DNA of 64,000 nucleotides, from assembly GCF_003386865.1 (NCBI RefSeq), contig NZ_QTUA01000001.1:2666001-2730000 (forward strand). The letters run 5' to 3'. Position numbers and translations under genes: made by a program. The DNA comes from Calidifontibacter indicus (GTDB lineage Bacteria; Actinomycetota; Actinomycetes; Actinomycetales; Dermatophilaceae). Below are positions 15,327-40,504 of the stretch, piece by piece; the stretch's first letter is position 1; each line of letters starts with the position of its first letter. Under the pieces are notes generated by a model that was not told where the DNA came from, ran no database searches, and saw only the letters and a list, made by a program, of their open reading frames with translations.

Positions 15327-16988
<1,662 letters not shown>

Positions 16989-21716: not shown

Positions 21717-22805
21717 ATGTCCAACTCTTCCGGCAACAAGAATGCGCTCCTGGCCGTCCCGGCCGCTGCGGCTGTGCTCGGTCTGATCCTGTTGCTGGTC
21801 AGCATGCTGTTCAGTCCGAAGGTGAACCTCGCGGGCCTTTCCAACGGCGACCTCGTGAACGCGAGCGACAGTGGCTTCTCGGTCTACAGCACCGACCAGA
21901 GCGACCGGGCCGCCGCGAGCTGCTCGGTCGTCAACAACGGCAAGACCACGTCGTTCGACCAGCCGTCCGCCGACTTCTCGGTGGAAGCCGAAGGCAAGAA
22001 GTACTGGGAGATCGGTCGCTCCCCCGACGGTCTCGCCAAGGCTGAATATGCAACCAGCTGCGCCAACACCAAGGGCGACCTGTTCGCCGGCAACCGCGCC
22101 GACAAGATCGGTGGCGGTTGGCGCACCCCGGTGCTGATCGTCGGCCTGTTGCTCCTGCTCGGCGGCATCATCGGCACCGTGCTGATGTTCATGCGCGGCA
22201 AGAAGGCCGCCTCGAACAACCAGAACAGCGGCTACGACAACTCCGGTTACCAGTACGGCCAGGGTTACAGCGACGGCTACGGCACCCCGGGTTCGTACGG
22301 GGTTTCGTCCGGCTCGCACACCCCCGCCCAGGGCAACCAGAACTACGGCCAGCAGGGCCAGGGCTATGGTCAGCAGCCGCAGCAGGGTGGTTACGGCCAG
22401 CAGGGCTACGGTCAGCAGGGCTACGGCCAGCAGCCCCAGCAGGGTGGTTACGGCCAGCAGGGCCAGGGCTATGGTCAGCAGCCGCAGCAGGGCGGTTACG
22501 GCCAGCAGGGCTACGGTCAACAGCACCAGCAGGGTGGTTACGGCCAGCAGGGCTACGGCCAGCAACCGCAGCAGGGCGGCTACGGCCAGCAGCCCCAGCA
22601 GGGCGGCTACGGCCAGTCGGGTCAGCAGTCGGGTCAGCAGGGTGGTGACGTCTCCGACGCCGCGACGCAGGCCGTGAACCGCGACGACATACGTGCCGCC
22701 GGTGCCGCCGGTGACGACGCGCCGACCCAGGCTCAGCAGCCCGGTCAGCAGGGTGGTCAGCAGGGTCAGTCCGGCTGGGAGCCTCCGCGGGACGGTCAGC
22801 ACTGA
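21717..22805 (+). CDS. Two-helix membrane protein with Gly-Tyr-Gln repeat tail
   Basis: I do not recognise a named family. The 362-residue protein has membrane helix 1 at about 10-32, an outer domain (33-137) with two cysteines (69 and 115) that could form a disulfide, helix 2 at about 138-159 ending in a basic MRGKK stop-transfer, and a long low-complexity tail. Residues about 205-305 consist of [10 protein letters not shown] and GQQGQ units; the last 50 are Gln/Gly/Asp-rich. The tail, predicted inside the cell, is free of Lys and nearly of hydrophobics except Tyr, like prion-like domains of FUS-type RNA-binding proteins. Some actinobacterial membrane proteins carry similar tails, but no function is assigned. 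It ends at a terminator hairpin. Confidence 0.85.
22340..22631 (+). repeat. In-frame GGYGQQ/PQQ coding repeat
   Basis: Tandem imperfect 15- to 45-base units built on GGTTACGGCCAGCAG and CAGCCGCAGCAG encode the [10 protein letters not shown] tail. Units differ mostly at third positions, so the repeat has been kept at protein level while DNA drifted. Slippage-driven length change between strains is likely. Confidence 0.9.
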
Positions 22806-36305: not shown

Positions 36306-37556
36306 TCAGGTCCGTGATGCGGGCGCCCGGCCGAAGTCGACGTCGACCCGCTCGAACCCGCGGATCACGAACGTCGGGTGGTAGGTCGGGCGCTCGATCA
36401 GCCGTACCTCGGGGGCCTGCCGGGCGATGCGGGTGATCATCGCCGACAGTTCGGCACGAGCCAGCGGTGCGCCGATACAGAAGTGCACGCCCGCGCCGAA
36501 GCCGATGTGGGTGCTCTCCCCACGCGCGGCATCGAAGGTGTCGGCGCCGGGGAACCGCTCCGGGTCTCGGTTGGCCGAACCGAACAGCATCGCGATCCGC
36601 TCCCCCACCTCGAAGGTGCGACCGGCGATCTCGACCGGTTCGAGCACCCAACGCTCAAACATCTGCAAAGGCGGGTCGAAACGCAGCATCTCCTCGACGA
36701 CCACGGTCGGCTCCACCTCACCACCGGTCACCCGACGCCACTCGTCCGGCCGCTGCAGCAATGCGTTGAGGCCGTTGCCGAGGGTGTTGACCGTGGCCTC
36801 GTGGCCGGCGTTCAGCAGCACGATCACGGTACAGACGATCTCGTCGACACTGAGCCGGTCGCCGTCGTCGGCCACCTGCACCAGCTCCGACACCAGGTCG
36901 GTGCCGGGGTGTGCCCGCCGGTCGTCGATGAGCTCGCGGACGAAATCGACGAACTCCCCCGCCGCCTGCTCCGCGTCGGCCCGCTGCTGATCGGTGGGTG
37001 CGATCTCGTACATCTTGACGATCGCGTGCGACCAGCGCAGCAGGTCGGGGCCATGCTGTTGGGGCACGCCCAGCAACTCGCAGATGACCGAGATCGAGAA
37101 CGGTTGCGCGAGCTCGGCGACGACATCGGTCGACGGCCGCTGGAGCACCGCACCGAGGGCCGCGTCGGCCAACTCGCCGATGCGGGGCTCGAAGTCGCGC
37201 ACCGCCTTGGCCGTGAACACCTTCGTCACCAACCGGCGGATCCGGGTGTGGTCCGGCGGCTCGAGGTTGAGCAGCGACCACCGCTCCGACTCGACGAACC
37301 GCGGGAACTCCTGCTCCAGGTCAGCCAACCCCGGACGTCCGAATTCAGCTGGGGTGTAACGGTGTTCGAAGCTTCTCCCGAGCGATCGGTTGCGCAGGGC
37401 CGCGTGCACGTCGGCGAACCGCGGCAGCAGCACGACGCCGCGCTCGGCGTACGGGATGGCACGTCCGGCGTCCCGCAACCCGGCGAGCACCGGGTAGGGA
37501 TCGGCGATGAAGGCCGGGTCGGACGGGGCGAAGCCGAGGTCAGCTGCGTCGGTCAC
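36306..37556 (-). CDS. Cytochrome P450
   Basis: A 416-residue soluble bacterial P450. The heme-binding loop is FGAGVHFCIGAPLAR with Cys360 as thiolate ligand; the I-helix oxygen-activation motif is AGHEAT (250-255); the K-helix ExxR is Glu289-Met-Leu-Arg292. The segment EPPDHTRIRRLVTKVFT (99-115) is the typical C-helix of actinobacterial CYP107/CYP105-like enzymes. No ferredoxin gene lies nearby, so redox partners are elsewhere. GTG 37556 overlaps the stop of the acyltransferase fusion as GTGA, which suggests coupled translation and a linked function, perhaps lipid or fatty-acid modification. The substrate cannot be told from sequence. Confidence 0.93.
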   Translation of the reverse strand: MTDAADLGFAPSDPAFIADPYPVLAGLRDAGRAIPYAERGVVLLPRFADVHAALRNRSLGRSFEHRYTPAEFGRPGLADLEQEFPRFVESERWSLLNLEPPDHTRIRRLVTKVFTAKAVRDFEPRIGELADAALGAVLQRPSTDVVAELAQPFSISVICELLGVPQQHGPDLLRWSHAIVKMYEIAPTDQQRADAEQAAGEFVDFVRELIDDRRAHPGTDLVSELVQVADDGDRLSVDEIVCTVIVLLNAGHEATVNTLGNGLNALLQRPDEWRRVTGGEVEPTVVVEEMLRFDPPLQMFERWVLEPVEIAGRTFEVGERIAMLFGSANRDPERFPGADTFDAARGESTHIGFGAGVHFCIGAPLARAELSAMITRIARQAPEVRLIERPTYHPTFVIRGFERVDVDFGRAPASRT

Positions 37557-39226
37557 GAGGCGTCTCCGGTGGTCTTTCTGGTCGATGTCTTCTTGGTGGT
37601 CGTCTTCTTCGCCGGGGTGTTCGCAGCCGTCCTCTTGGCGGTCGTCTTCTTCGCCGGGGTCTTCGCAGCCGTCTTCTTGGCGGTCGTCTTCTTGGCGGTC
37701 GTCTTCTTGGCGGTCGTCTTCTTGGCGGTCGCCTTCTTCGCCGGGGCCTTCGCGGTTGCCTTCTTGGCTGTCGCCTTGCGCCCCTTGGCGGTGTTCGCCG
37801 CGATCGCCCGCTCGATGTCGGGCAGATCCTGCTGCGGGATCCGTCCGCCCGGGTAGGTCGAGGCGACCTGGTCGATGCTCGTCGCCTTCAGACCCTTGGC
37901 GTCGTCGGGAAGGATCCGCGAGATGGCCGCCATGATCCGCTCGGTGTCGGCTTCCTCGGAGTCGTAGGCGAGGTCGACCGGCGTGCCGATGTTGACGGTG
38001 ATCTTGGGCGGGTTGCGGAAGCTCAACACGTTCGGGGTCGACGACGACCGCGGCCAGACCACTTCGGTGCCGCTCACCGCGAACGGGATGACCGGCGCCT
38101 TCGACATCGCCGCCAACCGGGCGGTGCCCGGGTAACCCTCGAGCGTGTCGGAGAAGAAGTCGAGTCCGCGCGGGATGGTGCCCTGCGGCATGACGCCCAC
38201 GAGGTCGCCGCCGGCGAGCGCCACCGCGGCCTCCTCGAGCGGGTCGGCCGCGTCGGGGTCACGCTTGTCGCGGTCGACCCGCACCCCACCGAGCATCCGA
38301 AGCACCGGGCCGAGCAAGGGCACGTCGAACAGTTCGCGTTTGGCGAGGAAGCTTGCCCCGCGGCCGGTGCGCCCCATCACCACCGCCATCGTGGCCATGT
38401 CGAAGTAACTGCGGTGGTTGCCGGCCAGAATGGCCGCGCCCTCAGCGGGGATGTTCTCCAGACCGTTGATCTCGAACCGGACGTAAGGGAAGGTCTCGGG
38501 CCGCGTCAGCATCATCGCCAACCGCCGGGCCTCGAGGTTGACCACCGGGAAGGTGAGCGTGCCGGGCGGTGCCTCGAACGACAGGATCGGCCACCGCTTC
38601 GCGATCGCCACCACGAGCAGCCGCGGGTCGGGGTTCACCGCGCCCGGGTTGCCGACCGCGCCGAGCAGCGGCACGTCGTAGATGGAGTCGGAGTACGCGA
38701 ACGATTCGGACAGGTCGATGTCGTGCTCGCGCGCCCACTCCTTGACACTCGCCAGCTTGCCCCACGACCACACGAACCGGCCGTCCTGCTTGCCGTTGTA
38801 CAACCCGTCGTCGCCCACCTGGTAGCGGGTGGCGATCACGTCGTCGAACCCGAGCGCGTCGGCGAGCGGCTTGATGAGGTGGTGCGGTGTGGTCGTCGCC
38901 ATCACCACCTTGCGCCCGGCCTCGTGGTGCTGCGCGATGAGGATCTTGGCGAACGGACCGATCTGGTCGACCAGCGACTGCGCCGCCCGGCGCGCCGCGT
39001 CGTCGAACGCGCCGCCGGGTTTGCCGGCCGCGACCAACACGGCCTGGCGCGCCAGCGCGATCGAACCCAGCGTCTCGCCGAACGCGTTCATCCACCAGAA
39101 GAGCACCGACTCCCCCGGCAACTTCGAGCTGACCACCCCGCTCTCACGCATCGCACGGGACAGAGCGGGACCGGACGCCTTCCGCAGAAGCGTCCGGTCG
39201 AGGTCGAAGAAAGCAGCGCCGGCCAT
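37553..39226 (-). CDS. HAD-IB phosphatase / lysophospholipid acyltransferase fusion with H1-like tail
   Basis: A 557-residue three-part protein. Residues 1-210: HAD subfamily IB with the nucleophile motif FFDLDRTLL (Asp8, Asp10), VVMATTTPHHLI and YSDSIYDVPLL. Residues about 245-440: PlsC-type acyltransferase with the NHRSYFD box (His271, Asp276) and the substrate motif MPQGTIPRG in place of the usual PEGT. Residues about 480-553: a basic tail of KKTTAK, PAKKAT and TAKKTT repeats. HAD-IB/PlsC fusions are known in actinobacteria and are thought to remodel phospholipids. A histone-H1-like tail on a lipid enzyme is odd; similar tails are DNA- or polyphosphate-binding. The gene starts 9 bases after the lipase gene and overlaps the P450 gene. 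Confidence 0.92.
   Translation of the reverse strand: MAGAAFFDLDRTLLRKASGPALSRAMRESGVVSSKLPGESVLFWWMNAFGETLGSIALARQAVLVAAGKPGGAFDDAARRAAQSLVDQIGPFAKILIAQHHEAGRKVVMATTTPHHLIKPLADALGFDDVIATRYQVGDDGLYNGKQDGRFVWSWGKLASVKEWAREHDIDLSESFAYSDSIYDVPLLGAVGNPGAVNPDPRLLVVAIAKRWPILSFEAPPGTLTFPVVNLEARRLAMMLTRPETFPYVRFEINGLENIPAEGAAILAGNHRSYFDMATMAVVMGRTGRGASFLAKRELFDVPLLGPVLRMLGGVRVDRDKRDPDAADPLEEAAVALAGGDLVGVMPQGTIPRGLDFFSDTLEGYPGTARLAAMSKAPVIPFAVSGTEVVWPRSSSTPNVLSFRNPPKITVNIGTPVDLAYDSEEADTERIMAAISRILPDDAKGLKATSIDQVASTYPGGRIPQQDLPDIERAIAANTAKGRKATAKKATAKAPAKKATAKKTTAKKTTAKKTTAKKTAAKTPAKKTTAKRTAANTPAKKTTTKKTSTRKTTGDAS
37568..37789 (-). repeat. KKTTAK coding repeat in the acyltransferase fusion
   Basis: Tandem units of 15 bases (plus-strand GGCGGTCGTCTTCTT) encode the Lys/Thr/Ala tail. 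Several neighbouring units are identical, so recent expansion or copy-number variation is likely, unlike the more diverged repeat in sigA. Confidence 0.9.
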
Positions 39227-39235
39227 GACGCGAGG

Positions 39236-40504
39236 TTAGTGGTTGGCGGCCGCGGTCGGCAGCGGCTCCACCTCAAGACGCCGGGCGATCACGTTGAACA
39301 CCCGGGGATCGTTGAGCAGATCGAGGTGGTTGACGCCGCCGACGTACTCGACCGCCCACGTGTCGCCACCCAGGCCGGCGGCCGACGAGCGCGACACCAT
39401 GCCGTCGCCGAACGGTCGTCCCCACCACGCCTTCGGCTGCGGCGCGATCATCCCGACGACCGCGAGGTGCCGGATCGGGTGGTGATGGCGTCGTTCGCTG
39501 GAGCGATGGTCGTGCGGGTCGTCGGGGTCGTAGCCCTTCCAGTCGGCCTCGACGAGATTGCCGTGCCGCAGGTCCTTGATGCCCTGGCTGCGGAAGCGCA
39601 GCAGATCGCCTGCCCAGCGGGTGGCGGTGTGTTCGGTCAGCCGGCCGGCGACGAGGTTGACCCCCTTCTCCAACAACGCACCGTGGTACGGCGTGCCGAG
39701 GGTGATCGTGTCGGTCACCAGGCCCGCCCAGGGCGCGCCCGGGGCGGCCTGCAGCAGCGAACTGTGCACGACGAGGCCGCCCATCGAGTGCCCGACGAGC
39801 ACCACCCGGTCGACCGGCACCGGCCACCGTGCCACGAGTCGGGCGAGCAACCGGCCCAGATCGCGTCCGTTGGTCGAGACGCGTTGGCCGGTGTTGTAGC
39901 GCATCCACAGTGCCGACCAGTCACCGTGCGCTTCCAGTCGGCGACCGTAGGACAGCCGCCGACCTTCGTCGTCGCGACTGGCGCGCCGTTTCCACATCTG
40001 CTCGGTGCCGACGAACCCGTGCACGAACACCACGATGTTCGACGCCGCATCGGGGTAGGCGTTGGCCAGACCGGCCTTGGTCACCGGCACGTCGTAGCCC
40101 GAGCGGCGCAGGGTCATCGGGTAGGAGATCGGCAGGTCGATGTCGGCGAGTCGGTCGCCGGTGAACCCCTGCACGAACGCGGCCACCGAGACGGCACGCT
40201 TGCGCACGACGCGGCTCGGAGTCTGCTGGGCGATGGTGTCGGCGGCCGGTCGCACGATCGCGCCGGTCGCATCGAGGGCGGCGCCCAACGTGTTGTAGGT
40301 GCTGCGCACGACCAGGTCGTGGGCCAACTCGACCGGTGTCGTGACCGGCCCGAAGACGGTGCGCGCTTTACCGAACACCTTGGTGGCCGCGGCGCCGTGG
40401 GCGTCGCACAGCGTGGCGATGACGCCGCGGGCGTCCTCACCGGCGACGGCTGCGCGCCGCGTGTCTCCTGCTCCACTTGTGGTGGTGTTGCGAGTGGCTG
40501 GCAT
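39236..40504 (-). CDS. Lipase-like alpha/beta hydrolase
   Basis: A 422-residue serine hydrolase with an alpha/beta fold: the oxyanion strand VVFVHGFVGTEQMW (about 158-171), the nucleophile elbow VLVGHSMGGLVVHSS, and a late catalytic His probably in GGVNHLDLLNDPRVF. The N-terminal 150 residues are helical and lack similarity to simple lipases. The arrangement recalls PGAP1-like or triacylglycerol-lipase-like hydrolases of actinobacteria that act on membrane or wall lipids. No signal peptide is visible. It is the first gene of the minus-strand cluster lipase, HAD/acyltransferase, P450 and (28 bases on) serA. GGAAGG precedes the ATG. The substrate is unknown. Confidence 0.83.
   Translation of the reverse strand: MPATRNTTTSGAGDTRRAAVAGEDARGVIATLCDAHGAAATKVFGKARTVFGPVTTPVELAHDLVVRSTYNTLGAALDATGAIVRPAADTIAQQTPSRVVRKRAVSVAAFVQGFTGDRLADIDLPISYPMTLRRSGYDVPVTKAGLANAYPDAASNIVVFVHGFVGTEQMWKRRASRDDEGRRLSYGRRLEAHGDWSALWMRYNTGQRVSTNGRDLGRLLARLVARWPVPVDRVVLVGHSMGGLVVHSSLLQAAPGAPWAGLVTDTITLGTPYHGALLEKGVNLVAGRLTEHTATRWAGDLLRFRSQGIKDLRHGNLVEADWKGYDPDDPHDHRSSERRHHHPIRHLAVVGMIAPQPKAWWGRPFGDGMVSRSSAAGLGGDTWAVEYVGGVNHLDLLNDPRVFNVIARRLEVEPLPTAAANH

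Follow-up and report, generated by a model that had tools for sequence, protein, structure and literature searches.

Several proteins with lysine-rich tails of the kind considered here have been described, as represented in the excerpts of the cited papers used here. The C-terminus of MLDS, with four PAKKA motifs, binds DNA non-specifically and recruits DNA to lipid droplets (PMC5504291). Tails of such composition bind DNA non-specifically in HbhA (PMC10665949) and without sequence preference in AlgP and PhaF, and the number of repeats in AlgP differs between isolates (PMC9239181); the Lys-rich tail of TopA also binds DNA non-specifically (PMC7398561). Phosphoinositide binding by HBHA requires both the Lys-rich C-terminus and methylation, charge alone being insufficient (PMC6176652). 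By these excerpts, tails of such composition can bring lipid or polyphosphate bodies to DNA (MLDS, HbhA, AlgP/PhaF, TopA; PMC5504291, PMC10665949, PMC9239181, PMC7398561). Rv2483c, named as a bifunctional PlsC or phospholipid enzyme, is found among lipid-inclusion proteins (PMC10699116), and another source, in the part available, names it only among other candidate PlsC homologs (PMC10593935). A search of the mostly open-access literature found no such tail on a PlsC enzyme; a search on an N-terminal tail of SigA found nothing, and searches on bifunctional HAD-acyltransferases and on repeat-expanded Lys-rich tails gave nothing usable.

Within the window, by which we mean the whole stretch of 64,000 nucleotides of Calidifontibacter indicus DNA that was analysed, a phosphatase-acyltransferase gene (HAD-PlsC) was found to end in a tail of this type, and a tract in SigA was compared with it.

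37553..39226 (including stop), minus strand: HAD-IB phosphatase-PlsC acyltransferase fusion of 557 residues (PF12710, PF01553, TIGR01490)
37556..37774, minus strand: H1-like Lys/Ala/Thr/Pro tail, residues 485-557 (73 residues) of the HAD-PlsC enzyme, defined by repeats and composition
37628..37738, minus strand: 15-base repeat array with unit KKTTA, AAGAAGACGACCGCC, the most homogeneous part of the tail (Tandem Repeats Finder)
16476..16769, minus strand: Lys/Ala-rich tract in SigA, residues 74-171 of CDS 15327-16988, a compared tract outside the enzyme

The HAD-IB phosphatase domain of the enzyme was matched by PF12710 over residues 5-188 (E 2.5e-29) and the acyltransferase domain by PF01553 over residues 250-385 (E 2.7e-24; 85.9 bits against a cut-off of 23), and the TIGR01490 score was 130.3 bits against a cut-off of 98.3. 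A profile built from the ortholog sequences matched solved SerB-type phosphatases and the solved PlsC structure 5kym. The HAD-IB motifs (D8xD10, K157, and D180/D184) and the PlsC HX4D motif (H271-X4-D276) were invariant in 28/28 aligned sequences, an alignment from which L053, without a readable frame beyond its aligned end, was left out. At residue 348 the acyltransferase motif reads PQGTIPRG, with the Gln that forms the majority in the alignment, versus PEGTIPRG in the ortholog from another genus (G006), whose Glu we take to be the usual residue at this position.

The tail consists largely of 22 Lys, 22 Thr, and 19 Ala residues, together with 3 Pro, 2 Arg, and 1 Asp, and has a net charge of +23, against -4 for the remainder of the enzyme. 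It contains eight AKK[A/T] motifs and three PAKK motifs, one of them a full PAKKA. In an AlphaFold2 model made from the ortholog alignment, a helix stops at residue 492 and pLDDT is below 50 over residues 497-557, which are thus predicted to be disordered. Predicted disorder, a Lys/Ala/Pro(Thr)-rich composition, and repeated AKK are the traits of H1-like Lys-rich tails of the AKKA/PAKKA type, and the tail has all of them. Scores were below cut-off for Pfam HC2 (PF07382; 28.4 bits against 40), a profile that tests the named HC2 family and not the tail type, and for NF038052/NF038053. A sequence-only reading of this DNA had proposed a histone-H1-like KKTTAK/PAKKAT tail on a lipid enzyme, and this was borne out as 73 residues coded by in-frame repeats; its bounds (37568-37789) had to be moved, since they begin five residues early, within the shared ...TAKGRK, and leave out four codons at the end.

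Tandem Repeats Finder reported 7.6 copies of period 15 over 37628-37738 (82% matches) and 4.5 copies of a higher-order period of 42 over 37587-37777 (83% matches). One 15-mer occurs four times in the tail, and four or more copies arose in 4/2000 codon shuffles; Lys-Lys doublets coded as AAGAAG lie in the coding frame in 9/9 cases. Because shared composition must be told from common descent of the units, the age of the repeats was gauged by the identity of Ala/Thr codons between repeated four-residue words, compared with codons permuted within the tract. Codon identity was 0.82 in the HAD-PlsC tail versus 0.40 after permutation (reached in 0/300 permutations), 0.39 versus 0.43 in SigA, 0.53 versus 0.51 in TopA, 0.55 versus 0.40 in HupB, 0.42 versus 0.27 in the DksA-like protein, and 0.64 versus 0.35 in the phasin-like protein. 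The tail had been described as a recent expansion of nearly identical 15-base units and the sigA tract as older-looking; both descriptions hold, since codon identity is high in the former and not in the latter.

The HAD-PlsC gene was present in 25/119 genomes searched in the family and in 9/53 genera (E up to 1e-60; own genome included). Searches at order and class levels, in which the best five candidates at most were scored per genome and remote homologs may have been missed, found it in at least 11/297 genomes, all of the same family, and in at least 2/296 genomes, respectively. A scan of named genomes contributed four more loci from MAGs (titled Actinobacteria, Microthrixaceae for two, and Acidimicrobiaceae), and a remote fifth was left out of the ortholog set. 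With one genome per species, 28 other orthologs were collected, of which 27 had a readable C-terminus after L053 was dropped; L107 (G392), an open frame of 467 residues, lies outside this count. None of these orthologs (0/27) has a Lys-rich tail; that of L050 has a short Arg-rich C-terminal stretch. In the two congeners (G001 and G002), the cores are 85% identical, and the proteins run only a few residues beyond the shared NTAKGR and stop where the tail would begin (...NTAKGRKAALKRR and ...NTAKGRRKRST). A conserved functional tail is ruled out among the orthologs examined, and a general role of the tail in the enzyme is not supported by the same comparison; the earlier reading had itself named absence of the tail from orthologs without exception as a refuting outcome, and 27/27 readable orthologs lack it. 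A tail that occurs in a single species of the three close ones, and in no more distant one, cannot belong to how the enzyme family works. As congeners and outgroups all lack it, the simplest account is that the tail was gained once, on this branch. Judged by comparison of sequences, two independent lines of evidence mark the tail as young: its absence in relatives and the codon agreement between its units.

Such tracts are common in the genus. When three genomes were searched with the pattern KK[TAP]3KK and open frames were read around the matches, such tracts emerged in at least eight further proteins (TopA, HupB, SigA, UvrA, SecA, and DksA-like, phasin-like, and HBHA-like proteins). The tracts of TopA, SigA, SecA (short), UvrA, and the phasin-like and HBHA-like proteins were present in 3/3 genomes, and those of HupB and the DksA/TraR-like zinc-finger protein were present in 2/2 genomes read, HupB of G001 being absent from the stretch fetched and the DksA-like protein of G002 lying outside the comparison. 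The HAD-PlsC tail was present in 1/3 genomes, whereas the other tracts occurred in every congener read. The phasin-like (below the PF05597 cut-off) and DksA-like proteins were named by Pfam match and the other tract bearers by reading of the sequence; the HBHA-like protein is a separate gene (L094/L122), likened by such reading, with no Pfam match. The related tract in SigA, claimed at residues 73-170, was located within one residue of that position and occurs in SigA of both congeners as well. Its standing as an echo with a special link to the HAD-PlsC enzyme was lost, because at least seven further proteins of the genus carry such tracts; no DNA-copy relation was detectable either. Copying of the tail from other tracts of the genome was rejected: in local DNA alignments against eight tracts, none gave a best score above the highest of its 100 synonymous-codon controls. 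The DksA-like tract came nearest, scoring 109 where the controls averaged 92 (sd, 8.5) with a maximum of 114.

Three further tracts were observed. The phasin-like protein (L092, C1 ~2.035 Mb) has a Lys/Ala/Thr-rich tract of ~250 residues that includes nearly perfect 15-base repeats and, by these repeats, looks recently expanded. The Lys-rich end of SecA (L090/L116) is longer in the own genome (KKKSKSKAAAKKATAKK) than in the congeners (L117, L118). Dense tandem repeats at window positions 22359-22616 have as their consensus a Gln/Gly/Tyr-rich low-complexity stretch (QGYGQQ-like).

The genes on either side of HAD-PlsC lie on the same strand.

36306..37556, minus strand: cytochrome P450 (PF00067), with its N-terminus aligned with P450s of the congeners
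39236..40504, minus strand: alpha/beta hydrolase (PGAP1-like; PF07819, E 7e-8), directly upstream of HAD-PlsC and in the same direction

The synteny of the hydrolase with HAD-PlsC was kept in G001, G002, and G006. On the other side, both congeners have the order HAD-PlsC, PiT, small membrane protein, DUF3349-like, P450, and SerA-like, versus HAD-PlsC, P450, and SerA-like in the own genome, where the block of three genes is absent; the PiT-type phosphate transporter and the DUF3349-like and SerA-like neighbors bear putative names assigned by reading of their sequences. The GTG start of P450 overlaps the TGA stop of the tail by four bases (GTGA), and the last codons of the tail, TGDAS, are not repeat-like. 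The DUF3349-like and P450 genes are separate and overlapping in G001 and form one uninterrupted open frame of 560 residues in G002 (L086 5814-7496), so that gene ends at this junction are labile. A second set of PiT, small protein, and a two-copy DUF3349-like gene lies 350 kb away in the own genome (L106 6018-8118, C1 ~2.353 Mb). Its PiT scores 78.5% to that of G006, versus 69.6 and 73.5% to those of the congeners; being nearer to another genus, this set is probably not the relocated native block. The native PiT/small-protein/DUF3349 block was thus probably lost, with another copy serving in its stead.

On balance we favor, with some reserve, a reading of the tail as a young, dispensable, polyanion-binding accessory, in which we infer the binding, the dispensability, and the order of events from an observed gene, its repeats, their absence in relatives, and a rearranged junction. 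The tail probably grew through in-frame tandem duplications that began at the basic C-terminus (...NTAKGRK) already present in the genus, and this growth would have coincided with or followed loss of the three-gene block between HAD-PlsC and P450, leaving the reading frame to run on as far as the start codon of P450. What results is a polycation, predicted to be disordered, on a near-neutral enzyme, and on physical grounds it should bind polyanions non-specifically, DNA first and acidic phospholipid second; DNA is ranked first because AKK[A/T]/PAKK repeats bind DNA in HbhA, MLDS, and HupB. That basic tails bind polyanions, as had been proposed, is supported for DNA and phosphoinositide by the literature on tails of like composition (MLDS, HbhA, HupB, AlgP, and TopA, with methylation needed in HBHA). 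The earlier interpretation is thus supported in part. The tail would not be needed for catalysis and may be nearly neutral; it probably binds polyanions without specificity while being dispensable for catalysis. Since the genus is rich in such tracts, their composition must be tolerated there or even favored, and HAD-PlsC most likely adds one more protein to those with this well-known actinobacterial type of tail. Against a dispensable accessory, the frame and the Lys doublets are kept over 73 codons, and such tracts persist in sister proteins.

Among the alternatives, the one that fares best, while still unlikely, is a selected tether, MLDS-like or PhaF/AlgP-like, by which the tail would bridge a membrane- or inclusion-bound glycerolipid enzyme to DNA. 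It draws on the DNA recruitment by the MLDS C-terminus, on the presence of Rv2483c among lipid-inclusion proteins, and on the phasin-like and HBHA-like proteins of the genus, which bear tails of this kind. WS/DGAT genes (triacylglycerol or wax-ester synthesis) occur in 3/3 genomes of the genus, and neutral-lipid inclusions are therefore possible there. However, these WS/DGAT, phasin-like, and HBHA-like genes are common to all three species and the tail is private to one, and the tail has a single full PAKKA (plus two more PAKK), against the four of MLDS in the excerpt available. A by-product of gene fusion comes next and is doubtful: the old stop would have been removed, the frame would run to the next start, and the relevant effect, if any, would be translational coupling of P450. 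The four-base stop/start overlap, the non-repetitive TGDAS end, and the single open frame of DUF3349-like and P450 genes at the matching place in G002 are consistent with it, but it leaves unexplained that the intervening sequence is a regular, Lys-rich coding repeat and not a remnant of intergenic DNA. To the same doubtful rank belongs a newly arisen nucleoid tether: in one species, the enzyme supplying the precursor for membrane and storage lipids would only recently have gained, through expansion of repeats, the type of DNA-binding tail that its genus uses in other proteins; if true, glycerolipid synthesis would be brought to the nucleoid, or DNA bound to lipid inclusions, with the tail-less congeners as controls.

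We consider improbable, and place below these, a membrane anchor, in which binding of the polycation to acidic phospholipids would keep the enzyme close to lysophosphatidate, its substrate. The best 19-residue Kyte-Doolittle mean in the core was 1.24, too low for a clear membrane span, and 5kym aligned with the HAD-PlsC profile only from its residue 58 onward, so that membrane contact may be peripheral; the need of HBHA for its Lys-rich C-terminus in phosphoinositide binding also speaks for an anchor. However, the catalytic motifs are kept in tail-less orthologs, and an anchor is therefore not required, and the HBHA authors, in the excerpt available, find that methylation is needed besides charge. 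Assembly can miscount repeats, but a mis-assembled or untranslated tail is very improbable given a genome in two contigs with 100% estimated completeness and an uninterrupted frame that uses coding-like codons (AAG for 22/22 Lys) and reaches the P450 start without an in-frame stop.

Many actinobacterial proteins carry H1-like tails, and age mostly obscures how each of them arose. In this genome and its relatives, a very young tail, tail-less sister genes with 85% identity, and a visible rearrangement together give a natural comparison with and without the tail. The question of whether a polycationic tail alters the location of an enzyme thereby becomes directly testable, and a tail that does nothing would warn against inferring function from such tails. 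The tail is real and was rightly described in the earlier reading; it is ordinary in kind, and its value is that of a young, controlled case.

The HAD-PlsC enzyme resembles the mycobacterial Rv2483c type, which we take to consist of a HAD-IB phosphatase fused to PlsC, a likeness drawn from annotation; its Lys-rich tail is absent from all 27 of its orthologs with a readable C-terminus. With AlgP/PhaF of Pseudomonas, as excerpted, it shares an H1-like tail coded by tandem repeats, whereas the repeat unit there is KPAA and the host protein is another one. HBHA (HbhA) of Mycobacterium has C-terminal Lys/Ala/Pro repeats too and, in the excerpts, binds DNA, and phosphoinositides when methylated, but is a coiled-coil protein. 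The Lys-rich C-termini of actinobacterial TopA and HupB are equal in residue composition and lie in the same genome, but these tails occur throughout the genus in the genomes read and belong to proteins that work on DNA. MLDS/JLP of Rhodococcus jostii is likewise a lipid-associated protein with a C-terminal, PAKK-rich polycation, but, as described in the excerpt, it is a lipid-droplet protein and not such an enzyme, with four PAKKA motifs and demonstrated DNA binding, whereas the HAD-PlsC tail, a putative polyanion binder, has one PAKKA and two further PAKK motifs.
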